DNA of 64,000 nucleotides from Sphingomonas aliaeris (GTDB lineage: Bacteria > Pseudomonadota > Alphaproteobacteria > Sphingomonadales > Sphingomonadaceae). The translations under genes and the position numbers were made by a program. Below are positions 20,721 to 41,437 of the stretch, in pieces. Numbering within the stretch: the stretch's first letter is position 1; every line of letters begins with the position of its first letter. The notes under the pieces are model-generated. The model was not told where the DNA came from. It did not search any database and worked only from the letters and a program-made list of their open reading frames with translations. Location of the stretch: the NCBI RefSeq assembly GCF_016743815.1, contig NZ_CP061035.1:994501-1058500 (forward strand), written 5' to 3'.

Positions 20721-20755
20721 GGGCTCTCGTCCTGTCCATTTTCTGGCGCGCTGGT

Positions 20756-21121: not shown

Positions 21122-21144
21122 CCGTTCGCCGAAGAGCGATCTGT

Positions 21145-24208: not shown

Positions 24209-26152
24209 TCACGTGGCTCGCAGGCTTCGGCAGGGTACGAACGCGGCCGGGTCTTGAAGTAATTCGCGAAGCTTTGCACGATCGACTGGCTTCATATCCG
24301 CAGGGAAGCCTAGCTGAGCTACCGTGGCGCGGACCCGCTCGACAGCGCGACTCTGCTGCTGGTCGTCAAGAGCCGCGCGTAGCGCATCCAGCCCGGGCTG
24401 CCGGTAGAGGGCCCAAGCGCGGTCTATTAAGGTTTCTCGGCGATCGAGATAATAGGAGATCGACGCAAAATCCGGTGTGCCGGAGGCCGTCTCGGATGCG
24501 GCACGGTTTAGGTCGGATGCGATACTTGCAATGTCGTTCCGGTTGGGCGGTTTAGCTGGACCACGTTCGATCGGCCTCGGGTCGCGTACAAAGCAGCCTA
24601 GCTTCGTCGTTTCGGCGATTATCAGGTCGACGGGCGGGGCAAAGGTTTCATGACCGTCTGCGTCGATGTACATGCCGTCGCCGGTTCTGAACACCGTGGC
24701 CTGATCCATTCGCCCACTTTGCCCCCGATAGGATTCCTGCACGTGATCATGTCCGAAACTTGCCACCGAAAGATCGGCATTAATCAGGCCGCGATTGCGC
24801 CTCGCCTTGCTCCAGTCCGCGATGTACCCGGCCAAAGTTCCTTGCTGCCCTTCGTATTCCCGATACGCGCCCGCAGTCATTCCAGCGTTACACCGCCGTT
24901 TAAAGGTGGAGGAAAATGGACTGAGTTCGCACGACATCGGCGCGCCGATCATCGTGCCAATCGGCCGCGGGTCAAACTTCGCCGCCATGGCGCGCGCGTC
25001 GCCGATTTGAGGCCAATGTATCCCGATCAGTGCTCCTACGGTCAGCACCAGGGCAAAGGTATTCCAGGAGGTCAGGCCCAGAAAGTTCTCGCGGTCGCCC
25101 TGCCGTACCCGCCCGATAGCCTGTATCGCACGTCCCCGCCGACCAAACCGTGCTCGTGCAACCGTGGCGGGCGTCGTGTTGGCGGTCCAGTCTCTGTCGG
25201 TCGGGCTCGCAGGGGCGTTCCAGACCATCGAGCCGGTGACACGTGCCAAGGCCGCCACACGCTGAGAGACCGTAGGGTGGGTTGCGCCGGTTCCACTGCT
25301 TTCCCCCGCGATCATCATCGCATCGTCCTCGGCCCGTGAGCTGTCGATCCGGTAACGCTCATCAACCTTGAGCAGCGCCGAGGCGAGAGCGGCTGGATCC
25401 TTTGTCCACCCCGCGGCCTGTGCATCGGCAACGAACTCACGCGACGATGCGATCAAGAGGCGCGAGACCTGGCCAGCGCGCAGCGCGATGCGCCCGATCA
25501 GGGTTGCTGCCAGCGACAGCGGTAGGACCGCTGGTATCGCCAAGGCGACCAGTCCGTGTACCGGAGAGAAGCGCAGGGCATTGCGAGCGTGCAACCGGGT
25601 AAGCGCCGACATGAAGATGTTGGCGGCCGCCATCAATCTGATGTCGCCGTTTTTCACATGGCTGAGCTCGTGCGCCAGGACGCCGGCAAGTTCCGCGTCG
25701 GAAAGCGCATCGATCAGGCCGCGCGTTACCACGACGACGGCCTTTTTGTGCCCGACGCCACAGGCAAAGGCATTACGCGCGTCACTTTCGATCACGCCCA
25801 CAAATGGCGTTGGCAAACCGGCTAGAATGATGAGGGGTTCGATTGTGCGACACAGTCGCGGTTCATCGGCGTCATCGACGAACTGAAACCCCACCGCACG
25901 TTTGACGGTCTCCACGTGCCACCACAATTGCGCTGCGAACCACACGATGGAGGCTGCAAGCACCAAGGGTGCATACCGCAAAGCGTATCCGGACCAGCTG
26001 AAGAGCGGTGCATGATCGATGTCGAGCATGACGAGGGGCAGGATAAGCGCGAATGGCGCAATGACCTGTATCGCCAGTAGAAAAAGGAGGAAGAGCCCGG
26101 TGGATCTTCCATCATTGCTTTGGATCCAGCCATACAGGCCTGTCGCTCCCAT
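24209..26152 (-). CDS. M48 family membrane metalloprotease (HtpX-like)
   Basis: A 647-residue inner-membrane zinc protease. Two hydrophobic segments at the start (about 20-43 and 60-78) anchor it. The zinc motif HELSH is at 161-165 (AGVLAHELSHVKNGDI), with the third ligand expected in REFVADAQAAG, typical of M48 enzymes. Two further hydrophobic segments lie near 190-225. After residue 340 there is another span (FALVLTVGALIGIHW) and a long periplasmic-looking domain of unknown type, so it is much longer than HtpX (about 290). It starts five bases after the LemA gene; M48 with LemA is a known pairing, probably in membrane protein quality control. Confidence 0.9.
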   Translation of the reverse strand: MGATGLYGWIQSNDGRSTGLFLLFLLAIQVIAPFALILPLVMLDIDHAPLFSWSGYALRYAPLVLAASIVWFAAQLWWHVETVKRAVGFQFVDDADEPRLCRTIEPLIILAGLPTPFVGVIESDARNAFACGVGHKKAVVVVTRGLIDALSDAELAGVLAHELSHVKNGDIRLMAAANIFMSALTRLHARNALRFSPVHGLVALAIPAVLPLSLAATLIGRIALRAGQVSRLLIASSREFVADAQAAGWTKDPAALASALLKVDERYRIDSSRAEDDAMMIAGESSGTGATHPTVSQRVAALARVTGSMVWNAPASPTDRDWTANTTPATVARARFGRRGRAIQAIGRVRQGDRENFLGLTSWNTFALVLTVGALIGIHWPQIGDARAMAAKFDPRPIGTMIGAPMSCELSPFSSTFKRRCNAGMTAGAYREYEGQQGTLAGYIADWSKARRNRGLINADLSVASFGHDHVQESYRGQSGRMDQATVFRTGDGMYIDADGHETFAPPVDLIIAETTKLGCFVRDPRPIERGPAKPPNRNDIASIASDLNRAASETASGTPDFASISYYLDRRETLIDRAWALYRQPGLDALRAALDDQQQSRAVERVRATVAQLGFPADMKPVDRAKLRELLQDPAAFVPCRSLRAT

Positions 26153-26157
26153 CGCCG

Positions 26158-26739
26158 TTAGAACGCGAAGGAGACTGGCTCGTCCACCAGCACACGCTCG
26201 ATGCCCAGATCGTAGGGCTGGCGGCTGTTCATGCGACGCTTGGAAGCGATGTAGCTACCCGGGAACTGCCGCATCATGACGTTATATTCCTCGACTGCCA
26301 GGTTGAAGAACCGGCGCGATGCAGTGATCCGGTTTTCACAGTCGACGAGTTGCTGCCGCAGCTGTCCAAATTCGGGTACGGCACGCAGCTCGGGATAGCC
26401 CTCCGCGCCGGCCAATAGCGTGCTGACTTTCAAGCTGAGGTCGCGTTCGGCCTTCAGTCTTGCCCCAGGCGCCACAGCGGCGAGAGCAGTGGCTCGCGCC
26501 TCGGCTACGCCGAGGATCAAGGTGCGCTCGTGCTCGGCGACGCCGCGGACGACCTCTACCAAACCAGGTATGATGTTGTGGCGGTGCTTCAGATGAACGT
26601 CGATATCGGCAAATGCCGTATCGCACCTCTGGTCGAGGGCGATCAGGGTATTGTTCGTCCGTGCGTAGGTCAGCACGATCCACCAGAGCGCGACGGCGAT
26701 CGATCCAAGAAGACCCAGCACGATCCATATGAGTATCAT
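26158..26739 (-). CDS. LemA family protein
   Basis: A 193-residue membrane-anchored coiled-coil protein. The N-terminal span is ILIWIVLGLLGSIAVALWWIV. The LemA core follows: NNTLIALDQRCDTAFADIDVHLKHRHNIIP split over helix 1, then VVRGVAEHERTLILGVAEARA. The near-C-terminal motif is EYNVMMRQFPGSYIA. The role of LemA is not settled; it often sits with M48 proteases, as here, five bases upstream of one. ATG 26739 (one codon after a GTG) has a GGGAG site. It is divergent from the PspA gene across about 130 bases, suggesting shared control. Confidence 0.9.
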   Translation of the reverse strand: MILIWIVLGLLGSIAVALWWIVLTYARTNNTLIALDQRCDTAFADIDVHLKHRHNIIPGLVEVVRGVAEHERTLILGVAEARATALAAVAPGARLKAERDLSLKVSTLLAGAEGYPELRAVPEFGQLRQQLVDCENRITASRRFFNLAVEEYNVMMRQFPGSYIASKRRMNSRQPYDLGIERVLVDEPVSFAF

Positions 26740-26869
26740 CACGTACGCTCCCGCTTGGTATCGCCGCCAAGGGTAAGGGCCGTTGGTTCACAAGCCGTTA
26801 TCGCGGCCAGGCTTCACGTCTTTTTAACGGGCGGGGCGGATGCTGATCGCAATAGTGATGGAGGTACGT

Positions 26870-27544
26870 GTGGCGGAATCAATATTGGTTCGAGTGCGGC
26901 GACTGTTGTCTGCGCGTATCGAGGATAGCGTTGATGCAATGGAGCGGGCGAACAACGACGGCGTGATGCGCGAAGCGATCCGCGAGGTAGATCGCACGAT
27001 CGATGCCGTTCGCGGTGATCAGGAACGCGCAATGACACGCCGGCTTCAGGCCGCCCGCCAGACCGAGATGATCGCCCGCAAGGTAGAGGAGCTGACCGCG
27101 AAGGCGCGCTTTGCTGTAGATGGCGGACGCGACGATCTTGCCGAGGGCGCGCTGAAGCGTCAGATCGACCTGGAACAGCAAACAAGCAATCTCGCCGACG
27201 TTCAGGATCTGGCACGCGAGGAGGAAGCGAAGCTCGACGAGAGTCTCGCGGCTTTGCGCGGACGCAAGGCGCAGATGCAGGAGGCACTCGCCGCCTTCGA
27301 GATCGCCAGGGCTGACGCATCGATGGGGGGCGACGGTGGTTTCAGCCAGGCCCGGCATGTCGAGCATAAGGTCGAACAGGCCGAAGCAGCGTTCGATCGG
27401 GCGATGAGCGGTGCAGGTGGGGTCGGATTTGCGCGTGGCGACGTTGGGGCACTGAACAGCGTTGCGGAGATCGACGCGATGCAGAAGAATGCAAGTGTCG
27501 CGCAGCGGCTCGCTGCTCTGAAGCAGGCGTCAAAGGCCGCCTAG
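26870..27544 (+). CDS. PspA/IM30 (phage shock protein A) family protein
   Basis: A 224-residue coiled-coil membrane-remodelling protein. The start SILVRVRRLLSARIEDSVDA is the PspA amphipathic helix. Long heptad helices follow (MREAIREVDRTIDAVRGDQE; LKRQIDLEQQTSNLADVQDL) and then a flexible end. PspA forms rods on the inner membrane and preserves it under stress. The GTG at 26870 is chosen because GGAGG lies six bases before it and the family helix starts there. It is followed one base after its stop by a membrane protein gene and is divergent from LemA-M48. Confidence 0.9.
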   Translation: MAESILVRVRRLLSARIEDSVDAMERANNDGVMREAIREVDRTIDAVRGDQERAMTRRLQAARQTEMIARKVEELTAKARFAVDGGRDDLAEGALKRQIDLEQQTSNLADVQDLAREEEAKLDESLAALRGRKAQMQEALAAFEIARADASMGGDGGFSQARHVEHKVEQAEAAFDRAMSGAGGVGFARGDVGALNSVAEIDAMQKNASVAQRLAALKQASKAA

Positions 27545-27545
27545 G

Positions 27546-28508
27546 ATGATCCGGAAGCCCGACGCCCGCGATTTTCGCGAGAGCGGCACCGTTACGACCA
27601 TTCGTGACGTTCATGCTGTTGCGATAGAGGGTGCTCGCGGCGTGGGGCGTGGCACGGCGCAGTTCTTCGGACGTGCCGTCATGGTGATGTTCGGGTTTGG
27701 CTTTGTCATGTCCGTGATCGGCCACGCTGGACCGGCGGGCCTTTTGTTCGCCTTTGCCGGGATCTTCGCCTTCTTCGTCTGGCGGCGTAGCAGGCGGGAC
27801 AAGCGTGATCGCGCCTGGCGGGATGTCGTGGCCACGCCTTCTCGTATCGACATCACCAGCATTTCGCCGGAAAGCTACGACCTGGCGCCGGGGGCGGCAG
27901 GGCGAGCGGCCGCGAAGGCGGCGGTGCCCGCCATCCTGTTGTTTCCGACCAGTGCAATCGGATACATGCTTCCGTTCGCGATCGGCGGCATCCTGTACCT
28001 CTCGCTTGCAATGCTCATAGTTGCCCGGCTTGTAGGCGACCGCACAATCTTGAAGTACGATCGGGAAAGCATCACGGTCAGCGGGCTGCTTCGGCAGAAC
28101 ACCATCCTGTGGGACGATGTCGCGGACATCGAGGTTCGCAAATCCTCGGCCTTCAACTTCAAGGTGTTGTTTAGCAGCGGGGCCACCCGAAACCTCGTCG
28201 TCGAGGGATATCGCAACCGGCTCGGCGGCTCTCGTAAGATGTATATCCCCGTCGACTTGCTCGGACTCGGCGAGCGTGAGCTCGCCGGCCTGATGTCGCG
28301 CTTTCTGCATCTCCAGGGTCAAGGGCATTCGACCGCGTCAGTCGCCGCCTTTGATGCCGTATCGCCGCCGGATATTACCGCAACGTCTTCGGTCTTCGAT
28401 GCTGACGAAATAATGGGCAGGTACCTGACAGAACGTGCTGTGCTGACAGCGGCGCATCGATCAGAACAGATGGCCACACGGCCCGTGTTCGGACGTAAGC
28501 GAGCGTAA
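27546..28508 (+). CDS. Membrane protein with PH-like domain, partner of PspA
   Basis: A 320-residue inner-membrane protein of unknown function. A first pair of hydrophobic segments lies at about 42-80 (VMVMFGFGFVMSVIGHAG and LLFAFAGIFAFFVW), a second at about 125-165 (AILLFPTSAIGYMLPFAIGG, ILYLSLAMLIVARL). The soluble part after it, DRTILKYDRESITVSGLL then TILWDDVADIEVRKSS, reads like a bacterial PH domain of the YdbS/YokE kind. It starts one base after the PspA stop, so it is very likely translated with it. It may sense or localise to the stressed membrane. Confidence 0.75.
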   Translation: MIRKPDARDFRESGTVTTIRDVHAVAIEGARGVGRGTAQFFGRAVMVMFGFGFVMSVIGHAGPAGLLFAFAGIFAFFVWRRSRRDKRDRAWRDVVATPSRIDITSISPESYDLAPGAAGRAAAKAAVPAILLFPTSAIGYMLPFAIGGILYLSLAMLIVARLVGDRTILKYDRESITVSGLLRQNTILWDDVADIEVRKSSAFNFKVLFSSGATRNLVVEGYRNRLGGSRKMYIPVDLLGLGERELAGLMSRFLHLQGQGHSTASVAAFDAVSPPDITATSSVFDADEIMGRYLTERAVLTAAHRSEQMATRPVFGRKRA

Positions 28509-28711
28509 GAAGTGCCGTTCGAATGGAACTTATTCCCGTCATCAATCGCGAGTCAACGACCCCAAGGACGTGGCGTCGCTTCCATGAACGTCGGTAAGCC
28601 AAGCGTGCCTGGAACCATGAATGGATGTCCGCTTTTAGGGGTGTCGAGATTAGCTCAGAGTGATCGCAAGTGGATCTTGCCCGCCTATGCATGGCGGCAA
28701 GACCCATCTTA

Positions 28712-29575
28712 CTATCCAATCGAGTTCAGTTCAGCGATCGCATCTTCGGGCAAGGTCAGCGATGCCACGGCGAGGTTCTCGTGCAGATGCGCCACGGACG
28801 ACGTGCCGGGAATGAGCAGGATGTTAGGGGCGTGCTGCAACAGCCAGGCAAGAGCTACCTGCATCGGCGTTGCATGAAGTCTCGCCGCGACTTTCGACAG
28901 CGCGGCCGATTGAAGCGGATTGAAACCGCCAAGCGGGAAGAACGGGACATAGGCGACGCCCTCGCCAGCCAGTCTCTCGATAAACGCATCGTCAGTGCGG
29001 TGCGCGATGTTGTACTGGTTCTGGACGCAGACGATATCGGCAATGCCGCGGGCTTCCTCGAACTGGCTAGGGGTGATGTTGCTCAGGCCGATATGGCGGA
29101 CCAGTCCTTGGCGTTGAAGATCGGCAACAGCCCTCAGCGGAGCCGCGAGCGAACCCTCTGCTGGGCCATGCACGTCGAACATCAGCCGCAGGTTGACGAC
29201 ATCGAGCGTTTCGAGGCCAAGGTTGGTCAAATTGTCCTCCACCGCGCGCTTTAGCTCGTCCGGCCCGAACGCCGGCAGCCACGAAGCGTCGTGCCCACGG
29301 CGTGCACCGATCTTGGTCACGATCAGCAGGTCGTCGGGATAAGGCGACAGCGCCTCCCGGATCAATTGATTGGTGACGTGGGGACCGTAGAAATCGCTCG
29401 TATCGACATGGTTGACGCCGGCCGCAATTGCCGCCCGCAGAACGTCCAGCGCCTGTTGGTGGTCGCGCGGCGGGCCAAACACGCCCGGTCCAGCGAGTTG
29501 CATCGCGCCATACCCGATCCGCTTCACGCTGCGCCCGGCCAGTGAGTAAGTACCGGCGGTTTCAATCGTCATCAT
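28712..29575 (-). CDS. Aldo-keto reductase
   Basis: A 287-residue NADPH-dependent aldo-keto reductase, TIM barrel. Catalytic residues seen are D and Y in DTSDFYG, and K in LLIVTKIG. The usual histidine position shows Arg (VVNLRLM). This variant also occurs in PdxI/YdbC-like oxidoreductases. The cofactor end is LLIPGTSSVAHLHENLA. Two adjacent ATG codons at 29575 and 29572 follow AGGAG. The gene is divergent from the LysR gene 90 bases away, which probably regulates it. The substrate may be an aldehyde such as pyridoxal, but this is inference. Confidence 0.88.
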   Translation of the reverse strand: MMTIETAGTYSLAGRSVKRIGYGAMQLAGPGVFGPPRDHQQALDVLRAAIAAGVNHVDTSDFYGPHVTNQLIREALSPYPDDLLIVTKIGARRGHDASWLPAFGPDELKRAVEDNLTNLGLETLDVVNLRLMFDVHGPAEGSLAAPLRAVADLQRQGLVRHIGLSNITPSQFEEARGIADIVCVQNQYNIAHRTDDAFIERLAGEGVAYVPFFPLGGFNPLQSAALSKVAARLHATPMQVALAWLLQHAPNILLIPGTSSVAHLHENLAVASLTLPEDAIAELNSIG

Positions 29576-29663
29576 CAGTCTCCTGTTATGACGCGTAGAT
29601 ACGAGTTGCGGATTACTCAGATAAGTCGGAGTGATCCGTACGGGCTGTACGGAAAACCGAACG

Positions 29664-30581
29664 ATGAAGGCTGACCTTGGCGACCTCAATGCCTTTCTTG
29701 CCGTTGCGCAGGCTCGGGGGTTCCGAGATGCGGCCCGCAACGTAGGATCAAGTGCATCGACCCTAAGCGAAGCCGTGAGGCGGTTGGAAACCAGGTTGGG
29801 GGTCCGCCTGCTCCACCGTACGACGCGAAGCGTCAAGCTGACCGAAGCAGGCATGCGGCTGGTAGAGCGTTTGAGGCCGGCGCTGGACGAAGTCGAGGCG
29901 GCACTCGATGTGATCAACCTGTTCCGCGACCGTCCCGCGGGAACGCTGCGACTCAATGTGCCAGTCAGCGCGGCACGACTGGTGTTGCCAGCAATCCTGC
30001 CCGGCTTCCTTGCAGACTATCCCGACATTCAGATTGAAGTCGTTGCCGACGACGGCTTTGTGGACATGGTAGCGTCAGGATGCGACGCTGGCATTCGCTA
30101 CGACGAGCGGCTCGAACAGGACATGATCGCCATGCCGATCGGGCCGCGCGTGCAGCGCTTCGCCACGGCCGCTTCGCCCGCCTATCTGGACGCGCGGGGA
30201 CGTCCCGGTCATCCCCGCGACCTGCTCGCACATGCCTGTCTTCGAGGCCGATTCACCAGTGGCGCGCTGACCAGCCCATGGGAGTTCGAGCGCGATGGTG
30301 AAATCGTAAGGGTGGAGCCGCAGGGTCCCCTGATCGCGAGCGTTGCCGGCGCGGCAGATCTGTTGGTCGACATGGCGATCGGAGGTAGCGGCATCGTGTC
30401 CCTGTTCGAGGACTGGCTTCGACCGGCGATCGATCGCGGTGTGCTGGAACCGGTGCTGCCGGAGTGGTGGCAGGCGTTCTCGGGCCCATACCTCTATTAT
30501 TCAGGTCGCCGCTTGCTGCCGCCGCCCCTCCGAGCCTTCATCGAGCATATCCGCGCGAATGCCCCAGCAGTCTCGAATTGA
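29664..30581 (+). CDS. LysR family transcriptional regulator
   Basis: A 305-residue LysR-type regulator. The winged HTH at 1-65 reads DLNAFLAVAQARGFRDAARN, with LSEAVRRLETRLGVRLLHRT as recognition helix and wing. A periplasmic-binding-like effector domain follows (GTLRLNVPVSAARLVLP, DIQIEVVADDGFVDMV). ATG 29664 aligns with the family N-terminus; the frame is open 11 codons further. Being divergent from the aldo-keto reductase, it likely controls it and itself. Confidence 0.92.
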   Translation: MKADLGDLNAFLAVAQARGFRDAARNVGSSASTLSEAVRRLETRLGVRLLHRTTRSVKLTEAGMRLVERLRPALDEVEAALDVINLFRDRPAGTLRLNVPVSAARLVLPAILPGFLADYPDIQIEVVADDGFVDMVASGCDAGIRYDERLEQDMIAMPIGPRVQRFATAASPAYLDARGRPGHPRDLLAHACLRGRFTSGALTSPWEFERDGEIVRVEPQGPLIASVAGAADLLVDMAIGGSGIVSLFEDWLRPAIDRGVLEPVLPEWWQAFSGPYLYYSGRRLLPPPLRAFIEHIRANAPAVSN

Positions 30582-30771
30582 GAGCGCTTATTCTGAATGT
30601 TGTACACGCATGAGAATGGGGGAAAGATGCCGATGACGGTTGTGGTTGGTTCATCAGTTTACAAACGCAAAGTTTGCGCGCGCCCGACCGCCACTTCGCC
30701 CTAAGGAACTACCCCGAGGCGGATGAAGGCAGCCGCCTGATTATTCTTAGAAGAATTAGAGTAGCCATAGA

Positions 30772-30948
30772 TTACGTATAAATGACCATAGCAACACCCG
30801 ACACAGACAAGACCACGCTCAGAACCATGAGGCACCTTACTGCGCGGGCATGACTCGAGCCGCTTGCGAGGTGTACCGCCCACAGCAGGAGACCCGTGCT
30901 GACGAGTACACAGATGCTGCCAAAGGTATCGCCCTGTGCCTCGGTCAT
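30772..30948 (-). CDS. Small two-span membrane protein (58 aa)
   Basis: From ATG 30948, preceded by GGAGAG, the product is MTEAQGDTFGS followed by two hydrophobic helices (ICVLVSTGLLLWAVHLA; CLMVLSVVLSVSGVAMVIY) with a positive loop SHARAVR between them. This gives an N-out/C-out or hairpin topology. Function unknown. The frame continues upstream for 37 codons without a better start. Confidence 0.45.
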   Translation of the reverse strand: MTEAQGDTFGSICVLVSTGLLLWAVHLASGSSHARAVRCLMVLSVVLSVSGVAMVIYT

Positions 30949-31141
30949 TGTCTCTCCAGCCAATTCTGGCTTCCAAGCTACGGCCCAGAACGCACTCTTT
31001 TGATGACGCCTGCATGAAATGACCCAGTCCGATTCCAGGAGCCCGCCAGTCTCCGCCACCCCAAGACGTGCGACCGCTTCAACCGCATCGAAATGCCCGG
31101 ACGAGGCGAATACGCCGTGGGCGGCGAGGTGACGATCGCAT

Positions 31142-31167
31142 CGGCCCCTCCATTCCCGGAGGGGCCG
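31142..31167 (-). terminator. Stem-loop after the SDR gene
   Basis: A perfect 10-bp stem (CGGCCCCTCC with GGAGGGGCCG, 6-base loop) twelve bases past the stop of the SDR gene. There is no T-run; probable transcript-end or stability hairpin. Confidence 0.45.
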
Positions 31168-31178
31168 CCCGCTGTCGC

Positions 31179-31913
31179 TCAGGCCGCAGCACCTCCATCG
31201 ATGTTGAGCGTGGCGCCGGTGATGTAGCTGGCATCCGGCCCGGCAAGGAAGGAGACGGCACCAGCAATCTCTTCTACATTCCCGTAGCGGCCGAGCGGGA
31301 TGGCGCCGAGCATCTGCTGCGCGAACTCGCCGTCGGCCGGATTCAGGTCGGTATCGATTGGGCCCGGCTGTACCGTGTTGACGAGGATATTGCGCGGAGC
31401 GAGGTCCTTTGCCCAGCCGCGTGCCAGCGCCGCGACCGCCGCCTTCGTCGCGCTGTAGACCGAGGTCGCCGGGAAGGCGAGTTCGCCTGAGATACTGCCT
31501 ATCAGGATGATCCGCCCACCATCGCTGAGGTGTGGAAGCGCCGCACGTGTGCCAACATGCAACCCTTTCACGTTGACCGCGAACTGGCGGTCGAAGGTCT
31601 CGTCGGTGTCCTCGGCAACGACGGAGAACTCGGCCACTCCGGCATTGTGAACCAGGATGTCGATCGTGCCGAGCGCTGCCGCCGCCTGCTCGACTCCTGC
31701 GCGCTGGGAAGCTGGGTCAGAAGCATCGGCTTGGAATGCAAAGGCAGTGCCGCCCGCGCTTTCGATCGCCGCTACGGTAGCGTCCGCGGCGGCCTTGTTT
31801 CCGGCGTAGGTGATCGCAACGGATGCTCCATCAGCGGCCAGTCTTTTGGCGATCGCTGCGCCAATACCACGCGACCCGCCAGTGACGAGCGCCTTCTTGC
31901 CCTGAAGTGACAT
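31179..31913 (-). CDS. SDR family oxidoreductase (FabG-like)
   Basis: A 244-residue classical short-chain dehydrogenase. The NAD(P) motif TGGSRGIGAAIAKRL is at 11-25, NAG is in VHNAGVAEF, catalytic Ser is in IGSISGEL, and YSATKAA supplies Tyr and Lys. The C-terminus GATLNIDGGAAA is typical of 3-oxoacyl-ACP reductase relatives. The exact substrate is unknown. The start has a GGAG site. It faces the ArsR-type gene at 32045 across a 131-base promoter region; such regulator-SDR pairs are common and suggest control by that repressor. Confidence 0.9.
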   Translation of the reverse strand: MSLQGKKALVTGGSRGIGAAIAKRLAADGASVAITYAGNKAAADATVAAIESAGGTAFAFQADASDPASQRAGVEQAAAALGTIDILVHNAGVAEFSVVAEDTDETFDRQFAVNVKGLHVGTRAALPHLSDGGRIILIGSISGELAFPATSVYSATKAAVAALARGWAKDLAPRNILVNTVQPGPIDTDLNPADGEFAQQMLGAIPLGRYGNVEEIAGAVSFLAGPDASYITGATLNIDGGAAA

Positions 31914-32044
31914 ATCGTATCTCCAAAATGTGCCCTGCGGTCACGCCTTCATGCGCTGTTGGCAGACAGGAAGATGGGGCGCCTCGGCAATGGTTCAACA
32001 ATCCCGAACTATTAAAATGATGCTCGTCTCCCTATATCTTGGTT

Positions 32045-32356
32045 ATGCCACGTTTCACCCATCCCAGGCTCGAGGATGTGCCGCTCGATCTAGCGTTGCA
32101 CGCCTTGGCCGATCCGAACCGCCTCGGCATGGTCGCGCGACTGGCCGCGACCGAGCGGCTAAGCTGCACGGACGCGGCTCCTTGCGAGACGATCCCTAAG
32201 AGTACGCTGTCGAACCATCTCAAGCTCTTGCGATCAGCGGGGCTGATAGAGACCACACAGGCGGGGCGTGAGATGATAAACACGCTGCGACGCTCCGATT
32301 TCGATCAGCGGTTCCCCGGTCTGCTCGAGGCGGTTCTCGCGAATCGGCCTGACTGA
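32045..32356 (+). CDS. ArsR-type winged-helix transcriptional regulator
   Basis: A 103-residue helix-turn-helix protein. ALHALADPNRLGMVARL is the first ArsR helix, PKSTLSNHLKLLRSAGLIE is the recognition helix, and the wing is TTQAGREMINTLRR. No metal-binding cysteine pair at the DNA helix (ELCVCDL type) is present; two Cys (SCTDAAPC) lie before it and could be redox-active. It is divergent from the SDR gene, the likely target. It ends about 280 bases before the tRNA fragment. Confidence 0.88.
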   Translation: MPRFTHPRLEDVPLDLALHALADPNRLGMVARLAATERLSCTDAAPCETIPKSTLSNHLKLLRSAGLIETTQAGREMINTLRRSDFDQRFPGLLEAVLANRPD

Positions 32357-32636
32357 CAGAGTGCACAGCGGTTAGTCGGCGACGAGCGTACAGCCGGCAT
32401 TACGGTGGATATAGGGCAGCCGCCCCAACAGCATGGTCAACCGCTCGGCGTCGCCTGCCATCGGAATCATGCCGTATCTGACGGGTCTTCCACGCGGACC
32501 TTCTCAGGAAAGCGCAGCCGCTCCAGCTCCGGTGTAGCTCCGGTGTAAACGGCTGATATTCTGGTTTTATTCCCGGTTCGTTCGAGTGGCGAGTTGGCGG
32601 AAAATGCCATTATTCTCAACGCTTAGCGAATAGGCT

Positions 32637-32686
32637 CTGTGTTGACATCGCAGGGGTCGCAAGTTCAATCCTTGCCACGCCCACCA
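32637..32686 (+). other. 3' half of tRNA-Val(GAC): candidate attachment site
   Basis: The sequence folds as the 3' half of a tRNA. The anticodon stem CTGTG/CGCAG (32637-32641, 32649-32653) encloses the loop TTGACAT with anticodon GAC (32644-32646). It continues with variable loop GGGTC, T-stem GCAAG/CTTGC with loop TTCAATC, acceptor strand CACGCCC, discriminator A and encoded CCA (32684-32686). The partner GGGCGTG is absent and the bases before 32637 do not make a D-arm, so this is not a functional tRNA gene. Integrating elements that use tRNA 3' ends leave such a displaced half at one border. It is followed six bases later by a perfect terminator. Confidence 0.75.
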
Positions 32687-32691
32687 TGGAA

Positions 32692-32727
32692 AGCCCTGGT
32701 AGCCGACCGGCTACCAGGGCTTTTTTG
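32692..32727 (+). terminator. Strong rho-independent terminator after the tRNA half
   Basis: AGCCCTGGTAGCC (32692-32704) pairs perfectly with GGCTACCAGGGCT (32709-32721) over a GACC loop, followed by TTTTT. It is probably the native terminator of the tRNA-Val gene that was split. Confidence 0.9.
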
Positions 32728-32788
32728 TTTCCTACGCCTGTAGAACGCCGGCAATTCCGAAACGCGTGCCGATGTCGTGGCGAAACTC

Positions 32789-33703
32789 CTACTGCCCCCG
32801 ATCGACCGACACCGCCGGCCTTGTTCGTTCCGCGACCGCGGACCACAACGTCTCCGATACCTTCGACAAGGCACCGGCCGGCCGCACGAGCGTGATCGAG
32901 ACAGATGTGCAATAGGCTTGCGGAGCGGCGTAGACGATCCGGCCGGCCGCCAACGCGGATGCCGCGAGCGATTGCGGCACCCATGCGACGCCCCGCCCGT
33001 CGATCGCCATCGACAGCAAAGCCGCCGCGAGCCGCGATTGCAACACGACCGTCAGTCGCGGTTCCAACTCGCGCGATGCCCAGTCCGCCGCCAGGATCCG
33101 GCCCAGCCCCGATTCGAGGCTATAGGCGAGATACGGCACATCGTCCTGCTCCAGCGTCCATCGCGGCTCCCCGGCGTCGTTTGGCCGACAGATGGGCACG
33201 AGCAGGTCCTGTCCGACCTCCACGCGGATGAAATCCTTCGTGTCCAGCGTCGTCGTCATAAGCGGATGATGATGCGACAGCAGGAACGATGCCTCGCCGT
33301 GCCGCATCATCTGTTCGCACGCCGTCAAGCTGTCCGATTTGAGGTTAATCGCCTCATGCGGCGCATGATCGACGATCCATTGCGGAAAGAAGCTGAAGGA
33401 CAACGCATGCGTCGCGGCGATGGCAAGGACCGCGTCGCCTTGCGATGCCACCTCCAGTGCCACGCTTCGGGCGCGATACAGGTCGCGAACTGAACCTTGA
33501 ACTTATCCACGGAAGTGCTGGCGGGCGGCACTCAGGTCGGTGCCGGATTTCGTCCGGATGAACAGGGGCGTGCCCACCCACTGTTCTAGCGATCGAATGC
33601 GGCGGCCGAATGCCGGCTGCGTGACGTTGCGCTGTTCGGCTGCGCGCGAGAAGTTGCGCTCGTCCGCAAGCATCAGGAAGTCTTCGAGCCACTCCAGTTG
33701 CAT
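32789..33703 (-). pseudogene. LysR family regulator interrupted by TAA
   Basis: A LysR-type regulator next to and divergent from the tartrate dehydratase gene. From ATG 33703 it reads MQLEWLEDFLMLADERNFSR, then VTQPAFGRRIRSLEQWVGT and FIRTKSGTDLSAARQHFRG. It then meets TAA (33503-33505, codon 67). The same frame runs on through RDLYRARSVALEV, the whole effector domain and MAIDGRGVAWVPQSL to 32789, giving the normal 304 codons if read through. A single change (for example TAC or TAT to TAA) explains it. If real, the neighbouring genes have lost their regulator; a sequencing error is possible. Confidence 0.8.
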
Positions 33704-33877
33704 CGCCTTGGAACCCCGCTCGTTGTGCGACCGACCCCGATAGTCGCCTACATCTTTATGCCGATCCGGCACCGATGGACTCGTTATCGGCATTTGATGG
33801 CGCGCGGCAAGCACCCCTATCGAGGACCGATCACGGATCGGAAAAGCACGCATTACCGCGATCCAGAAGGAGCCATC

Positions 33878-35041
33878 ATGCGCATCATCGACGTCTGCGA
33901 GATCACGCAGCCCATCTCGTCCCCCATCCGCAATGCCTATATCGACTTCAGCAAGATGACCGCCAGCCTCGTCGCGGTCGTCACCGACGTGGTGCGCGAC
34001 GGACGGCGCGTCGTCGGCTACGGCTTCAACTCGAACGGCCGCTACGGCCAGGGCGGCCTGATCCGGGAGAGGTTCCGCGACAGGATCCTCGAAGCGGCGT
34101 CGGAAAGCCTGCTGGACGACGAACGCGAAAATTTGGATCCGCACAAGATCTGGGTGGCGATGATGACCAATGAGAAGCCGGGCGGGCACGGAGAACGCTC
34201 GGTCGCGGTCGGCACGCTAGACATGGCGATCTGGGACGCCGTTGCGAAGATCGAGGGCAAGCCGCTGTTCCGCTTGCTCGCCGAGCGGCACGACCGCATC
34301 GCGAACCCGCGCGTGTTCGTCTATGCCGCCGGCGGCTATTACTATCCCGGCAAGGACAACAGCGCGCTGTGTGCGGAAATGCGCGGCTACTTGGATCGCG
34401 GCTACAACGTCGTGAAGATGAAGATCGGCGGCGCGTCGATCAAGGAGGATCGCGGCCGGATCGAGGCGGTGCTGAACGAGATCGGGTCGCAGGCGCAACT
34501 GGCGGTCGATGCAAACGGCCGCTTCGACCTCGAAACCGGCATCGCCTACGCCAAGATGCTCCGCGAATATCCCTTGTTCTGGTACGAGGAGATCGGCGAT
34601 CCACTCGACTATTCGTTGCAGGCGGCGATTTCCGAATATTATCCGGGTCCGATGGCGACCGGCGAAAACCTGTTCTCGCATCAGGACGCGCGCAACCTCT
34701 TGCGCCATGGAGGCATGCGGCCCGATCGCGACTGGCTGCAATTCGACTGTGCCCTGTCCTACGGGCTGGTCGAATATCTTCGCACGCTGGAGGTGCTCAA
34801 GCAGTTCGGCTGGTCGCCGTCGCGCTGCATTCCGCATGGCGGGCACCAGATGTCGCTCAACATCGCCGCCGGTCTGGGGCTGGGCGGCAATGAGAGCTAT
34901 CCCGACCTGTTCCAGCCCTATGGCGGGTTCTCGGACGGGGTGAAGGTGATCGACGGCCACATCACCATGCTCGAACTTCCCGGCATCGGTTTCGAGGGCA
35001 AGTCCGATCTTATCAAGGTGATGCGGGAACTCGCGGAGTGA
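33878..35041 (+). CDS. tarD: D(-)-tartrate dehydratase (enolase superfamily)
   Basis: A Mg-dependent dehydratase that turns D-tartrate into oxaloacetate. The 387 residues match, as I recall it, the characterised Bradyrhizobium enzyme along the whole length. The catalytic set is all present with a constant shift of two: K180-x-K182 (VVKMKIGG), D211 (VDANGRF), E237 (WYEEIG), E263 (ATGENLF) and H320 (CIPHGGHQMS). Both acid/base residues (K182, H320) and the three metal ligands are therefore intact. AAGGAG lies six bases before ATG 33878. The gene is divergent from a broken LysR gene and 140 bases upstream of an exported esterase. Confidence 0.9.
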   Translation: MRIIDVCEITQPISSPIRNAYIDFSKMTASLVAVVTDVVRDGRRVVGYGFNSNGRYGQGGLIRERFRDRILEAASESLLDDERENLDPHKIWVAMMTNEKPGGHGERSVAVGTLDMAIWDAVAKIEGKPLFRLLAERHDRIANPRVFVYAAGGYYYPGKDNSALCAEMRGYLDRGYNVVKMKIGGASIKEDRGRIEAVLNEIGSQAQLAVDANGRFDLETGIAYAKMLREYPLFWYEEIGDPLDYSLQAAISEYYPGPMATGENLFSHQDARNLLRHGGMRPDRDWLQFDCALSYGLVEYLRTLEVLKQFGWSPSRCIPHGGHQMSLNIAAGLGLGGNESYPDLFQPYGGFSDGVKVIDGHITMLELPGIGFEGKSDLIKVMRELAE

Positions 35042-35180
35042 GAATCCGAAGGCCAAAAAAGCGCGCTTTTCCGTCGCATCTGCTAAAGACTGGCATGTAT
35101 CGCCGGCCGAAAACAACGTCGCCGGGCAGGATAACTTCTCAAGATAAGGGCTTATCCGGGTGATTTTGAAGGGAATGAAG

Positions 35181-36209
35181 ATGAAAGCGACTCGGTTGCT
35201 GACGGCTGGAGTTCTACTGATGAGTGTGTCGACCACCGGCGTCGCATCGGCGCAATCCACCGTGCCCGGCTATACCGAGGGCGCGCAGATTATGCGCGTC
35301 GAGGTCACGGGTGGGCAAATCGACACGATCGGCGGCGTGATCTATTCACAGATCAAGTCCCAGCGCGCCATTCGACAGCTTCGGATGACGCTGCTCGTGC
35401 CCCGAAACGACGACCTGAAGCCCGCCATCGTCTATTTCCCCGGCGGCGGCTTCACCTCGGCGGATTACGAGAAATACTCCGAAATGCGCACGGCGCTGGC
35501 CAAGGCCGGTTACATCGTCGCCGCGGCGGAATATCGCGTCGTACCGGACAAGTTTCCTGCGCTGGTTCAGGATGGGAAAGCTGCCGTCCGCTATCTCCGC
35601 GAACATGCCGAGGAATATGGCATCGACCCCGCGCGGATCGGGGTGATCGGGGATTCCGCCGGCGGATACGTCGCGCAGATGGTCGGTACGACCAATGGCG
35701 AGCGGGAATTCGACCAGGGTGTGTTCCTCGACAAATCGTCGGATGTGCAGGCCGCGGTTTCGCTATACGGCATCTCCGACCTCCGCAGCATCGGCGAAGG
35801 TTTCCCGGAGGACGTACAAAAGGTCCACCAGTCGCTCGCCGTAACCGAAGCCCTGCTCCTGAATGGCCCGGCGTTCGGCCGCTTCGTCGGTGCATCGGTG
35901 ACCAGCACGCCCGAAAAGGCGCTCGCCGCGAGTTCGATCGGGCACGTGAAGGGAAAAAAGCCACCCTTCCTCATCATGCACGGCACCGCGGACACTTTGG
36001 TGTCGCCTATGCAAAGCGCGCATCTCTACGAGGCGCTGAAAGCGGGCAACAATTTCGTCGAATACGTGCTGGTCGAAGGCGCCGGGCATGGCGACCTCCC
36101 CTGGTATCAGGCGCCGGTCATCGATCGCGTGGTCGGCTGGTTCAGGCAGCATCTGGGCGCGCCGATCAAGGGCAAGGCAAAGCCCGCCCGAACAAACGCA
36201 AATTTGTAG
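35181..36209 (+). CDS. Exported alpha/beta hydrolase (carboxylesterase-like)
   Basis: A periplasmic esterase of 342 residues. A signal peptide starts MKATRLLTAGVLLMSV and ends near GVASAQ. The enzyme core has VYFPGGGFTSADYEKY (oxyanion glycines), AAAEYRVVPDKFPA, the nucleophile elbow GDSAGGY, and HGTADTLVSP (acid). The histidine is in VEGAGHGDLPW. It belongs to the BD-FAE/esterase_phb group, with activity on feruloyl or acetyl esters possible. ATG 35181 is eight bases from GAAGGG. It lies downstream of tarD in the same direction but with a 140-base gap, so cotranscription is uncertain. Confidence 0.85.
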   Translation: MKATRLLTAGVLLMSVSTTGVASAQSTVPGYTEGAQIMRVEVTGGQIDTIGGVIYSQIKSQRAIRQLRMTLLVPRNDDLKPAIVYFPGGGFTSADYEKYSEMRTALAKAGYIVAAAEYRVVPDKFPALVQDGKAAVRYLREHAEEYGIDPARIGVIGDSAGGYVAQMVGTTNGEREFDQGVFLDKSSDVQAAVSLYGISDLRSIGEGFPEDVQKVHQSLAVTEALLLNGPAFGRFVGASVTSTPEKALAASSIGHVKGKKPPFLIMHGTADTLVSPMQSAHLYEALKAGNNFVEYVLVEGAGHGDLPWYQAPVIDRVVGWFRQHLGAPIKGKAKPARTNANL

Positions 36210-36604
36210 GTGCTTACGACCTGGTGATCGCGAAACAATATCGGCTACATCCGCATCCCGCGGACTTACCTCTTCCATCGATCTTGTTCTATCGATGCGC
36301 GAACGATGTGGGTCGGGATCAAAGCGCGGAATATCGACGCCTGGCCAAGTTCGTAAGACGCAGACGGTCAGCCGACGTATCCGCGACCGCGATATCATCC
36401 ATCACCGGATTGTGTTTCGATCGGTTCGTCCTTATCGCCAAGCTTGGGGGCGATGATTCGACGCGGAAACGAACTGGTTCTGCGATCAACCCGTTGCCGG
36501 GCCAGCGGGACGATTTTCGGTCAAGTTTGATTTAGGCGAGATTAACTTCCCGGTCGGTATTGGTTCTTGGTCCTTTTATAGTTGGGCGGGGTGCATAAGC
36601 GATC
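36210..36604. other. Intergenic stretch before the acyltransferase
   Basis: No coding signal or family motif is found in this region. The base composition becomes more AT-rich towards 36540-36600 (ttaacttccc, ccttttatag), consistent with a promoter for the acyltransferase. Confidence 0.45.
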
Positions 36605-37888
36605 ATGAGCGAAGTCTTGAAGCCGATGAGCTTATCCAATTTTCGCGGTAAATCGTTCAAGGACATTTTGGACCTGAACCGTGGCATGGGCCTTGGATTC
36701 GACGTCATTCGTCTGGGCCTCGCAGTTCTTATTCTGCTGAGTCATACCTCCGGCATCATCGGAACGAACGGTACGATCACCGCGATTATGAACTGGATAT
36801 TCCAGATCGATGGCGACAGTGCCGCCAAGATCGCTTCTGCTGCCACAATCAATGCGACCGCTGTCGCTACGCCAGGACATGAACCTTATGGATTGACCGG
36901 ACTGGGGCGTCCAATCACGCTATCCTACTTGCCGATGTTTTTCGCCCTGAGCGGATTTCTTGTGACTGGGAGTGCCCTCCGCACGCGCAAGTTGCTGCCT
37001 TTTTTAGGACTGCGTGTTCTTCGCCTGCTGCCAGCCCTTTTCGTAGAGGTTGCGCTTTCCGCTGTAATTCTCGGGGCGGTATTTACGACATTGGATCTTT
37101 CGGCTTACTATTCGTCGGCAGGTTTCTGGAATTATTTCTGGAACATCGTAGGGCATGTCCAGTTTCATTTGCCCGGCGTTTTCGAGCAGAATAGATCGAC
37201 GATAGTAAACGCAAACTTGTGGACACTGCCATGGGAATTTTATTGCTATCTGGCTATGTCGCTCGTTATCGTGGCCGGGCTACTTGGAAATAGAATAATA
37301 TTAACAGTGATGTTTCTTTGCGTCACCGTGGTGTCTCTTGTCCTCAGCTTTTCAATTGAATTCCAGGTTGTTCCTGCGCATTTAAGCGGGTTCATGCTTA
37401 TATATTACTTTTTGGCCGGCATGATGTTTTTCCTGTGGCGAGAAAAGATTATTTTCCACGAGGCGATATTCGTTGCGTGCGCCATAGTCTGCTACATCCT
37501 GATGATGTCGCCAAGAACCGTTTTCATCTATCCTTTGCTTCTAACATATATGACGGTTTTTATCGGCCTTTTCCCGATGAGGCAGTTCAAGCTCTTAAAA
37601 ACCGGGGATTATTCGTATGGCATATATCTGTACGGATATCCGGTCACCCAAGCACTCGTGACAGCGATACCCGCGCTCAAAACGAGCCTGGTCTTTGCCG
37701 CCCCTGCGGCCCTGGCTGCGACTGCGCTCTTTGCGGCACTCTCTTGGCACGGCGTCGAAAAGCACTGCTTGAAACTGAAGCGCTACCTTTCTCCAAAATC
37801 GGCCAAGATAAACGAAACGCTCCATCCGGATGCCGGGTTGGGCAATGAGGGTTCGAAGCCCGATGCTCGACCGGAAGGCTCGGCTTAG
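36605..37888 (+). CDS. Acyltransferase 3 family membrane protein (OafA-like)
   Basis: A 427-residue inner-membrane protein that would O-acetylate a surface polysaccharide. The start FDVIRLGLAVLILLSHTSG carries the conserved His of helix 1. About nine further spans include LPMFFALSGFLVTGSALRTR, the Arg-containing loop LRVLRLLPALFVEVALS and LWTLPWEFYCYLAMSLVIVA. The SGNH domain of long members is absent. Codon use (ATA, TTA, AAT) is more AT-rich around 37200-37560 than in its neighbours, suggesting later acquisition. ATG 36605 has no strong ribosome site. It is not linked to a glycan cluster locally; the EPS locus is 12 kb away. Confidence 0.88.
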   Translation: MSEVLKPMSLSNFRGKSFKDILDLNRGMGLGFDVIRLGLAVLILLSHTSGIIGTNGTITAIMNWIFQIDGDSAAKIASAATINATAVATPGHEPYGLTGLGRPITLSYLPMFFALSGFLVTGSALRTRKLLPFLGLRVLRLLPALFVEVALSAVILGAVFTTLDLSAYYSSAGFWNYFWNIVGHVQFHLPGVFEQNRSTIVNANLWTLPWEFYCYLAMSLVIVAGLLGNRIILTVMFLCVTVVSLVLSFSIEFQVVPAHLSGFMLIYYFLAGMMFFLWREKIIFHEAIFVACAIVCYILMMSPRTVFIYPLLLTYMTVFIGLFPMRQFKLLKTGDYSYGIYLYGYPVTQALVTAIPALKTSLVFAAPAALAATALFAALSWHGVEKHCLKLKRYLSPKSAKINETLHPDAGLGNEGSKPDARPEGSA

Positions 37889-37954
37889 CGCTTAGGGTCG
37901 ATCGCAAACGCTTTGACCGTGCGCTAAACCTGATCGAAGTTACGACGATATTCG

Positions 37955-37975
37955 CCGGCGGTACGCAACCGCCGG
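37955..37975. repeat. 8-bp inverted repeat before the yciE gene
   Basis: CCGGCGGT and ACCGCCGG flank a 5-base loop. It lies 67 bases after the acyltransferase and 80 before the YciE-like gene; it may be a terminator (no T-run) or an operator. Confidence 0.3.
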
Positions 37976-38056
37976 GGTTGCAGTCCGTTGGTGAGACACG
38001 CCGGGCGCGAATCCATGCGTTCGGCGACCATTTCACATGACATAACGGAGGCAGCT

Positions 38057-38578
38057 ATGGGCTTGTTCACGAAGGATATCGCGACATTCGACGACCTGTT
38101 CCTGCATCAACTGCAGGATGTCTATTACGCCGAGAATCAGATCACCAAGGCGCTGCCCAAGATGATCGAAAAGGCGACGGACGGCGGGCTGAAGGCCGGC
38201 TTCCAGACGCATCTCAGCGAGACCGAGGGACAGATCAAGCGGCTGGAACAGGTGTTCGACCTGCTCGGGGAAAAGGCGAAGGCCGTTACCTGCCCGGCGA
38301 TCGACGGCATTATCAAGGAAGCGAATGAGGTTGCCGGCGAGATTTCGGACAAGGCCGTGCTCGACGCCGCGCTGATCGCGGCCGCGCAGGCGGTCGAGCA
38401 TTACGAGATCACGCGCTACGGCACGTTGGTCACCTGGGCCGAACAGCTCGGGCGTAGCGACATTGCGGGCATCCTCCAGCAGACGCTGGACGAGGAATAT
38501 GCCACCGACGACAAGCTGACCGCGATGGCGAAGTCGAAGCTGAACGCAAAGGCCGAAGCGGTTACCGAACCGGCCTGA
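38057..38578 (+). CDS. yciE: YciE/DUF892 ferritin-like protein
   Basis: A 173-residue four-helix ferritin-like protein of the YciE family, stress-induced in relatives. Helices contain the diiron-type Glu/His pattern: FLHQLQDVYYAENQITKALP (E at the metal position), FQTHLSETEGQIKRLEQVF, ALIAAAQAVEHYEITRYGTL and GILQQTLDEEYATDDKL. It starts at ATG 38057 with GGAGG seven bases upstream and ends at a strong hairpin. It stands alone. Its biochemical role is unknown; it may store or detoxify metal or peroxide. Confidence 0.92.
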   Translation: MGLFTKDIATFDDLFLHQLQDVYYAENQITKALPKMIEKATDGGLKAGFQTHLSETEGQIKRLEQVFDLLGEKAKAVTCPAIDGIIKEANEVAGEISDKAVLDAALIAAAQAVEHYEITRYGTLVTWAEQLGRSDIAGILQQTLDEEYATDDKLTAMAKSKLNAKAEAVTEPA

Positions 38579-38584
38579 TCGAAA

Positions 38585-38611
38585 GGCGCGGGCTTCACAA
38601 AAGCCCGCGCC
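38585..38611. terminator. Hairpin between yciE and the Crp regulator
   Basis: GGCGCGGGCTT and AAGCCCGCGCC pair over a 5-base loop between convergent genes. No T-run; a two-way terminator is likely. Confidence 0.55.
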
Positions 38612-38643
38612 CTACGATATTCGAATGAGTCGCCGTGCAGTCG

Positions 38644-39378
38644 TCATCCGCCTTTGCGCAGGTGCAGGTATGTGGGGTCGAAATCCGCGACCGAACACAA
38701 TTTCTTCCAATCCAGTACCCGAACCCGTTTGTTTCGGACGTCGACCACGCCGGTCTCGCGCAGCGCACGCAGCATGCGGTTGACATGGACTGCGGTCAGA
38801 TTGGTCGCGTCGCCGAGTTGAACCTGCGTTAGCGGGAATTCGAAATCGGTCCCTTCGCGCGTCTCGCCAATGTCGAACCGGATGCTCAATTCGGCGAACA
38901 GATGCGCGATACGTTCCATCGCGGGTTGTCGCGCATTCGTCAGTGACCATTGCGACAGGATTGCCGCATCGACCGTGCAATCACGCCAGAACGCCTGAGC
39001 CAATGCCGGATAGCGTTCGGATGCCTCCATCAGGGCGTCGTGCGGGACGCGATAAATGACGGTCTCGCCAAGGCTTTGGAGCGCCGACGCCGCTTTCGGA
39101 AGCACGGCGGAGTGAAGATCGGCCATGTCGCCGGCGATGTGGATCGCAGTCGTCAATCGTTCTCCGCTCCGCGCCTGGCCGAAACGCCCGGCCATGCCGG
39201 ACAGGATGAGGCAGGACCGGGTCACCTCCTCGCCCAAGCGAACGAAGTCGCGGTTCGCGCGGATGGTCTCGATCTCGCCGGGTAGGCCCAGCACCGCTTC
39301 GCGTTCTTCCGAACCCAGCGCCGATCGCAACGTGAGACGATCGAGCCAAAGGGATAAGCCGGTACGTGCTTCGTTCAT
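38644..39378 (-). CDS. Crp/Fnr family transcriptional regulator
   Basis: A 244-residue regulator with an N-terminal cyclic-nucleotide-binding-like barrel (RDFVRLGEEVTRSCLILSGM; GDMADLHSAVLPKA), a dimer helix, and a C-terminal winged HTH (FEFPLTQVQLGDATNLTAVH, VNRMLRALRETGVVDVRNKR). No cysteine cluster of the Fnr type is seen and the cAMP phosphate motif is weak, so the signal is unknown. It is convergent with yciE. It is of the same type as the broken regulator at 17810-18547. Confidence 0.92.
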   Translation of the reverse strand: MNEARTGLSLWLDRLTLRSALGSEEREAVLGLPGEIETIRANRDFVRLGEEVTRSCLILSGMAGRFGQARSGERLTTAIHIAGDMADLHSAVLPKAASALQSLGETVIYRVPHDALMEASERYPALAQAFWRDCTVDAAILSQWSLTNARQPAMERIAHLFAELSIRFDIGETREGTDFEFPLTQVQLGDATNLTAVHVNRMLRALRETGVVDVRNKRVRVLDWKKLCSVADFDPTYLHLRKGG

Positions 39379-39457
39379 GATATCCGTCTGATAGTGTCGA
39401 TCTGACGTTCAGCGTTTCGACATGCCCGATGTTCCGTGATGCGCTATCCTTCCCGCA

Positions 39458-39700
39458 TCAATCCTCCGAAACGCGCACCGCTTCCCGAAATGGCACGACG
39501 AAGGACGGACCGCCCCGGGCGTCCTGGACTTCTATATGACAGCCAAGGCAAAGGGTACCGTCATGCATCGTTCCGCACATGATATCGCGGGCGGATCGGA
39601 TCGCTTCCTGGCGGGCGTCGTCCACGCTGGCAAATTCAAACCCTTCTTCGTCTCGCGTGACTCGGCCACATTCGTGGAGGTGAAGGAAGAATTGCGGCAC
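39458..39700 (-). CDS. DUF6894 family protein
   Basis: An 80-residue protein of the DUF6894 family, common in Sphingomonas and Methylobacterium and of unknown function. Typical elements are PQFFLHLHECGRVTRDEEG and FASVDDARQEAIRSARDIM, ending in a short strand set (GCHIEVQDARG). The GTG at 39700 is chosen because the family begins there and a GGGA stretch precedes it; the frame is open 31 codons more. The gene is divergent from YjbQ. Confidence 0.75.
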   Translation of the reverse strand: MPQFFLHLHECGRVTRDEEGFEFASVDDARQEAIRSARDIMCGTMHDGTLCLGCHIEVQDARGGPSFVVPFREAVRVSED

Positions 39701-39896
39701 GATTGCTATCCCACAGACGTCGATATCGGATCGGAAACTGATTAGAAGGCCAATGAATTCATAATGTTCGGTGCCAGCTTTCGTTGCCGACAAGGGTGCT
39801 GATCGACATCAGCAGCCCTGCCTGGACCTCGCACCGATGCGGGATCGCGCGACCGACGCGTGCGTTGGCGTGGAAGGTGAATGCAGGGAGCGACCG

Positions 39897-40316
39897 ATGA
39901 GGCAGGCCAGCGGCTCGATCACGATAGAGACAAGCGGCAAGGGGCTGGTGGAGTGGACCGACCGCGCCGCATCGTGGGTCGCCGAACAGGGCATGGCCGA
40001 GGGGCTGCTGACGATCTTTTGCCGGCACACCTCCGCCTCCTTGCTGATCCAGGAAAATGCCGCACCCGAGGTGCGTGACGATCTGGCGGCTTATTTCGAG
40101 CGGATCGCACCCGAAGACCGCAATGCGTACGACCATGACGACGAAGGACCGGACGATATGCCGGCGCATATCCGCACGGCGCTGACCGACACGCACCTGT
40201 CGATCCCCTTGTTCGGCGGCCAGTTGATGCTGGGAACGTGGCAGGGGATCTACCTGTTCGAACACCGCCGTCGTCCCCATCGGCGAACTGTGGCGTTGCA
40301 CCTGATCGGCGAGTGA
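39897..40316 (+). CDS. YjbQ/UPF0047 family protein
   Basis: A 139-residue cytosolic protein of the YjbQ family. Seen are VEWTDRAASWVAEQGM, the motif LLTIFCRHTSASLLIQENA with conserved His and Glu, DDMPAHIRTAL, and the end LGTWQGIYLFEHRRRPHRR. Some members have thiamine phosphate synthase activity at a low level, but the physiological role is unclear. ATG 39897 follows AGGGAG. Its stop overlaps the start of the next gene by one base. Confidence 0.9.
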   Translation: MRQASGSITIETSGKGLVEWTDRAASWVAEQGMAEGLLTIFCRHTSASLLIQENAAPEVRDDLAAYFERIAPEDRNAYDHDDEGPDDMPAHIRTALTDTHLSIPLFGGQLMLGTWQGIYLFEHRRRPHRRTVALHLIGE

Positions 40317-40633: not shown

Positions 40634-40640
40634 GGGCCGC

Positions 40641-41423: not shown

Positions 41424-41437
41424 GTCCGGTCTTCTCC

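Follow-up and report, generated by a model that had tools for sequence, protein, structure and literature searches.

The 64-kb window analysed here (positions 1–64000, corresponding to 994501–1058500 of the chromosome contig C1 of assembly G000) contains a single piece of a tRNA gene. On the plus strand at 32637..32687 lies the 3′ part of a tRNA-Val(GAC), positions 26–76, which runs from the first base of the anticodon stem to the CCA and one following T (readable as CTGTG TTGACAT CGCAG ... CCACCAT). It is followed on the same strand, at 32690..32727, by a hairpin and T run that, read directly, resemble an intrinsic terminator and are probably the original terminator of the tRNA gene. Bases 32612–32636, immediately upstream, do not match the 5′ half of tRNA-Val. 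Neither a complete tRNA (ARAGORN) nor an Rfam match at the gathering threshold is found in the window, as expected where only half a tRNA is present. The half stands far above chance, because the next-best matches to tRNA-Val in 324 kb of chromosome span only 12–16 bases, and the best other ungapped match to its last 38 bases reaches 25/38. The same 324 kb hold no third tRNA-Val fragment, and the exact 62-base pattern formed by the half and its terminator had no match in a search of a database of genome contigs.

The only intact tRNA-Val(GAC) found in the genome is located at C1:847665–847740, on the same strand as the half and 147 kb to the left of the first base of the window; ARAGORN, run on 260 kb beyond the window (834501–994500 and 1058501–1158500), gives no tRNA but this one. 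The two sequences are identical in 51/51 bases, with C1:847690–847740 as the exact 51-bp repeat of the half and the identity beginning at tRNA position 26. The half gene with its terminator and missing 5′ half, described from the window alone in a preliminary description of this DNA, is thereby confirmed; the intact tRNA-Val(GAC) predicted upstream of the window exists, and the direct repeat sought in the genome turns out to lie within it. The intact tRNA and the 3′ fragment share replicon and strand, the fragment being downstream, and the distance from repeat core to repeat core is 179,447 bp. This delimits a stretch of 179.4 kb (C1:847690–1027136), the right 32.6 kb of which fill window positions 1..32636, with the remainder left of the window. 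When the outer flanks are joined in silico, an intact tRNA is restored, since the 51 bases are identical at both ends. Insertion into tRNA genes is a well-known route for bacterial islands, which shows here with unusual clarity, and we are nearly certain that the half tRNA is the attR of an integrative genomic island inserted in tRNA-Val(GAC), with the 51-bp repeat as its core. The observation of the half tRNA is confirmed, and its interpretation as a genomic island is supported by the features described below.

The island accounts for about 4% of the 4.26-Mb assembly, and a literature search at the level of titles and abstracts found no published account of it. Its GC content is uninformative as a marker (0.631, versus 0.637 to the left and 0.625 to the right). 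Broken and orphan genes had been described as dense to the left of the half; of this claim, coding density alone was measured, and our own gene caller puts it at 0.69 for 1–32636 versus 0.87 for 32688–64000.

About 1.5 kb past the intact tRNA, and tail to tail with it, a gene on the minus strand (C1:849254–850711) encodes a predicted tyrosine integrase, in line with the earlier expectation of an integrase gene beside the intact tRNA. The prediction is based on sequence: the protein matches phrog_1 (integrase) with an E value of 1.5e-12 and the SAM-like domain Phage_int_SAM_5 with an E value of 4.7e-4 at a score just under the family cut-off, and the R, KxxR, GH and Y residues, which we take to be catalytic, are invariant in 12/12 aligned relatives. 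PF00589 does not detect it at E 0.001, NCBIfam has no match to it, and at the sequence level its profile matched none of the solved structures. An AlphaFold model of a database copy, P0001 (pLDDT 79.8, pTM 0.52), features N-terminal strands and a helix, with a mostly helical remainder, and among solved structures it comes closest to lambda integrase (Foldseek E 4.5e-5, with TM-scores below 0.3). Scoring of the 7991 best candidates gave at least 547 database proteins that reach E 0.001 or better against the integrase; wherever an organism was named in the matches shown, it was Sphingomonas, as it was for 3/3 named loci found. The integrase belongs to a conserved family that is unnamed in NCBIfam and undetected by PF00589 at E 0.001.

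In the assembly itself, residues 1–30 of the integrase lie in a different frame from residues 31–431, which reflects either a real frameshift or an assembly error. A conserved programmed frameshift, hinted at by matches in two frames, was rejected, as relatives start in one continuous frame: the start is continuous in P0001 and in most relatives read, and in the locus L098 the frame breaks later, near residue 215. The second frame at the start belongs to an overlapping upstream small gene, and the 485-aa open reading frame first called for the integrase is a chimera of the integrase frame and the small-gene frame. A small gene of about 113–120 aa overlaps the integrase start in 4 relatives read; the single copy scanned has no Pfam match.

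Just inside both island ends lie pairs of CCGGTGT repeats, 11 bp apart. At the right end, these are two copies of CTCCGGTGTA (32527..32547, plus strand); at the left end, the matching pair is found at C1:847812–847830, with one exact and one imperfect copy, about 70–90 bp past the intact tRNA. In the 324 kb there are three exact copies of the 10-mer CTCCGGTGTA, one at the left end and two at the right, whereas a dinucleotide model of this DNA predicts 0.26. We scored such pairs over 8 bases at a period of 11 (maximum 48) in our island and five elements from relatives (G145, G161, G047, G079 and G144). The score was chosen after viewing the ends of all six elements, not blind, and was guarded by internal control segments and by other periods. 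Our island reaches 45/48, a value attained by 0/1000 control pairs; all six elements score 43–48 of 48 at period 11 and at most 28 at the other periods from 9 to 15. Random pairs of internal segments equalled or exceeded the observed score in 0/1000 cases for five elements and in 1/1000 for G145, with control maxima of 38–44. The positions are likewise consistent across the six elements, 56–73 bp past the tRNA and 109–111 bp before the core. The repeats fall into three classes, CCGGTGT (our island and G145), GCGGTAA (G144) and TCGGCGC (G161, G047 and G079), and the class is identical at both ends within each of the six elements. Left ends compared with right ends of different elements score 42–45 within a class and 31–41 between classes; because the between-class scores still reach these values the classes are related sequences, and, with control maxima of 38–44, the distinction between them is softer than the evidence from position and period. 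Lambda-type tyrosine integrases use core and arm sites, and the end repeats are putative arm-type integrase sites. They also provide a testable rule for pairing ends with integrases in this family.

How common is this arrangement in the genus? The integrase was matched at E 0.001 in 39/151 genus genomes (our own included), many of the matches being weak. Twelve relative integrase loci were read for tRNAs: seven have tRNA-Val(GAC) beside the integrase, one tRNA-Arg and one tRNA-Thr, and three have none within the sequence read, two of these probably belonging to the same contig. Besides our own, nine relative genomes with the integrase were searched for the half. It is found on the contig of the intact tRNA in five of them (G145, G161, G079, G047 and G144), 10.9 to 47.0 kb away, and on contigs other than that of the intact tRNA in G074 and G042; no tRNA-Val half was found in G050 and G071, where the integrase relative lies beside tRNA-Arg or tRNA-Thr. 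In a separate sample, 18/81 genus genomes (again including our own) carry displaced tRNA-Val halves, which makes tRNA-Val(GAC) an insertion hotspot in the genus. Half and intact tRNA share one contig in 11 of the 18, with the expected strand and side in 11/11, at distances of 2.1 to 47 kb plus the 179 kb of our own genome. One candidate (G006:C70:1-55), at a contig edge and with the intact copy at another contig edge, was left out of this count. In the displaced halves listed, the tRNA match starts at positions 18–31, most often at 30. A terminator follows the half, by eye, in 8/9 printed flanks (our own, G161, G047, G079, G144, G042, G074 and G003). In the ninth, G145, the downstream sequence looks like the left end of another element: at about 1670–1785 of this locus (L139) the sequence after the half resembles, again by eye, the left ends of the G161, G047 and G079 elements, which suggests tandem islands at one tRNA.

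Among the genomes searched, the closest integrase is that of G042 (76% identical). The 160 bp at 32527..32686 (plus strand), which include the tRNA core, are homologous to the right end of the G042 element, with 76% identity; the contig of that element did not yield its other end with the intact tRNA. This homologous right end and the repeat pairs that match between the two island ends bear out the earlier placement of the island to the left of the half. They also bear on a simpler explanation, namely that the half is a stray duplicated tRNA fragment, left by a transposon or by repair and unrelated to integration. In general, tRNA fragments can have other origins; here, however, the exact 3′ boundary with its terminator, the integrase, the matched end repeats and the same layout elsewhere render such an origin extremely improbable, and we rejected it because the end repeats and the homologous right end of G042 contradict it.

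From the integrase onward the backbones of the island and the G042 element are collinear (C1:849254–851409 and 904098–909202 in our island, 20.9–28.3 kb in G042), with our island about 53 kb longer between the collinear blocks. We infer growth by later insertion, loss in G042 being the alternative; the 179 kb were probably not one original cargo, as about 53 kb interrupt a backbone that is continuous in G042. This extra stretch contains three IS91-family copies of 2.5 kb each, 99.6–99.96% identical (C1:865430–867961, 888457–890988 and 900083–902614), as well as genes for an alpha-amylase, a GH97 enzyme, an arsenical pump, a multicopper oxidase and cation efflux. In each IS91-family copy, a tyrosine recombinase gene adjoins the transposase; a fourth recombinase, with a score equal to those associated with IS91, is encoded at C1:482526. 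Further along the island, a cluster on the minus strand (C1:910373–915505) encodes a tyrosine recombinase of 423 aa alongside two large proteins of 535 and 626 aa that have no Pfam, PHROG or NCBIfam match, and C1:983616–986318 encodes a LigD-like protein of 900 aa that combines ligase and primase-polymerase domains with a C-terminal Exo_endo_phos domain. Pfam found no phage structural genes in the 50 scanned of the 199 called island genes. A comparison of the left 25 kb of the window with plasmids gave 10 records, each with 0–1% query cover and most of the named ones sensor or regulator genes; for a 20-kb part of the island (L010) there were 50 plasmid records, the 10 listed covering about 6% each, with named genes that were mainly IS3-family transposases.

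The island is about four times as long as the second-longest tRNA-to-half distance observed (47 kb), which raises the question of whether it is one element at all. Successive elements could have inserted into this one tRNA and later lost the attachment site that separated them, so that 847.7–1027.1 kb would represent a merged array. The contrast with the 2.1–47 kb of the other tRNA-to-half distances, a second tyrosine recombinase gene at C1:914234–915505 and the sequence after the G145 half, with its suggestion of tandem insertion, all point in this direction. However, neither a further fragment of the tRNA nor an additional exact CTCCGGTGTA occurs in the 324 kb, the repeat class is the same at both island ends, and the right end is homologous to that of G042, the genome with the closest integrase. 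On balance, we consider such a merged array rather unlikely and favour one element enlarged by insertions.

The DNA to the right of the island (32688..64000) begins with LysR, MR_MLE enolase and esterase genes, followed by a cluster of GAF histidine kinase, sigma-54 regulator, TPR and Wzz genes, the first three of which we take to be PrsK, PrsR and PrsT. The sigma-54 regulator (51314–52660, in window 49233–59550) has a second genome copy at C1:2794919 with 66% identity, so that the genome may carry a second cluster of exopolysaccharide or PEP-CTERM type. Among the matches listed from 295 genus genomes, the LysR-enolase-esterase genes are found elsewhere in some. On the left side of the intact tRNA, the DNA is conserved in 16/17 genus relatives with a retrieved locus; the right flank directly follows tRNA-Val in 0/15 genus relatives whose downstream DNA was read. 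Ordered matches resume 63–100 kb beyond the half, at C1:1090302 and 1115365 (G018) and at 1127550 (G010 and G018), and G008 has no ordered match within about 117 kb. From the tRNA to the core block at C1:1127550 our genome measures 279.8 kb; subtracting the island leaves 100.4 kb, compared with about 82 kb in G010 and about 57 kb in G018. The right flank is thus largely lineage-specific. That native DNA lies to the right of the half, as the preliminary description held, agrees with the terminator, the lack of an integrase match up to C1:1090 kb and the lack of a clear repeat pair just right of the half (best scores 34 and 30 of 48); immediate synteny gives the claim no direct support, as the 15 relatives read carry other DNA downstream of the tRNA.

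Alternatively, the right flank could be what is left of an earlier island in this tRNA, with the true native flank starting near C1:1090 kb. Ordered G018 matches resume only at C1:1090302, which corresponds to +11 kb from the tRNA in G018, and the sigma-54 regulator is duplicated here, whereas 10/11 genus relatives have one copy at 65–66% identity (G009 has none that strong). Against such a remnant speak the same missing integrase and repeat pair, a terminator after the half of the kind seen behind other displaced halves, and a flank gene (38057–38578) with a 90%-identical gene in G010, 45.7 kb downstream of tRNA-Val on the other strand. An older remnant seems to us somewhat unlikely, and the right flank is more probably native.

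How could the island have arisen? In the mechanism we propose, the tyrosine integrase would have recombined the chromosomal tRNA-Val(GAC) with an attP that carried the 3′ part of the tRNA, beginning at the anticodon stem, with a crossover probably in or near the anticodon loop, as the matches of displaced halves begin at positions 18–31, mostly at 30. The element's copy would have restored the gene at the left end, where an element-borne terminator, suggested by its by-eye likeness to the terminator at L096, would now stand behind the intact tRNA. The original 3′ part and its terminator would have been displaced to the right end, which today lies at a distance of 179.4 kb. The repeat pairs near the ends, spaced by 11 bp, may be bound as arm sites by the N-terminal domain of the integrase. 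The island would accordingly have been mobile in the past.

Finally, we would like to place the island in the context of known systems. Its integrase resembles lambda integrase in its SAM-like domain, its R, KxxR, GH and Y residues and, in the model, its N-terminal strands and helix, and here too repeats lie in pairs outside the core; unlike lambda integrase, the integrase lacks an NCBIfam or PF00589 (E 0.001) match, its TM-scores stay under 0.3 and its arm binding is putative. Integrase-mediated insertion at a tRNA 3′ end is also shared with ICEs; in contrast to these, the chromosome contig C1 contains no PF02534 coupling protein, which is matched on contigs C2 and C3 alone. The closest likeness is to islands mapped in tRNA genes by Islander, for which the source (PMC4383910) describes an intact tRNA, a same-orientation 3′ fragment downstream, a tyrosine integrase gene between them and an anticodon-centred site, all of which are seen here. 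The length of 179,447 bp falls inside the Islander limits of 2–200 kb and far above the main size peaks of 13.6 and 39.9 kbp given there. The paired tRNA and fragment, the integrase gene, the length and the restored junction all agree with a tRNA-targeted island with an anticodon-centred site, and the island is a further case of this known type, notable for its size, its integrase family and its paired end repeats.

A single half gene thus fixes the borders of a 179-kb island to the base. Beyond this one genome, we tentatively propose, as a possibility that falls short of even likelihood, a genus-wide integrase family without a Pfam or NCBIfam model whose members share the same crossover region in tRNA-Val(GAC) and use at least three arm-site codes (CCGGTGT, GCGGTAA and TCGGCGC). 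If this reading is true, elements that differ in code could accumulate at a single tRNA, none of them excising another, which would account for both the variable downstream side of tRNA-Val in relatives and the build-up of the 179-kb block.
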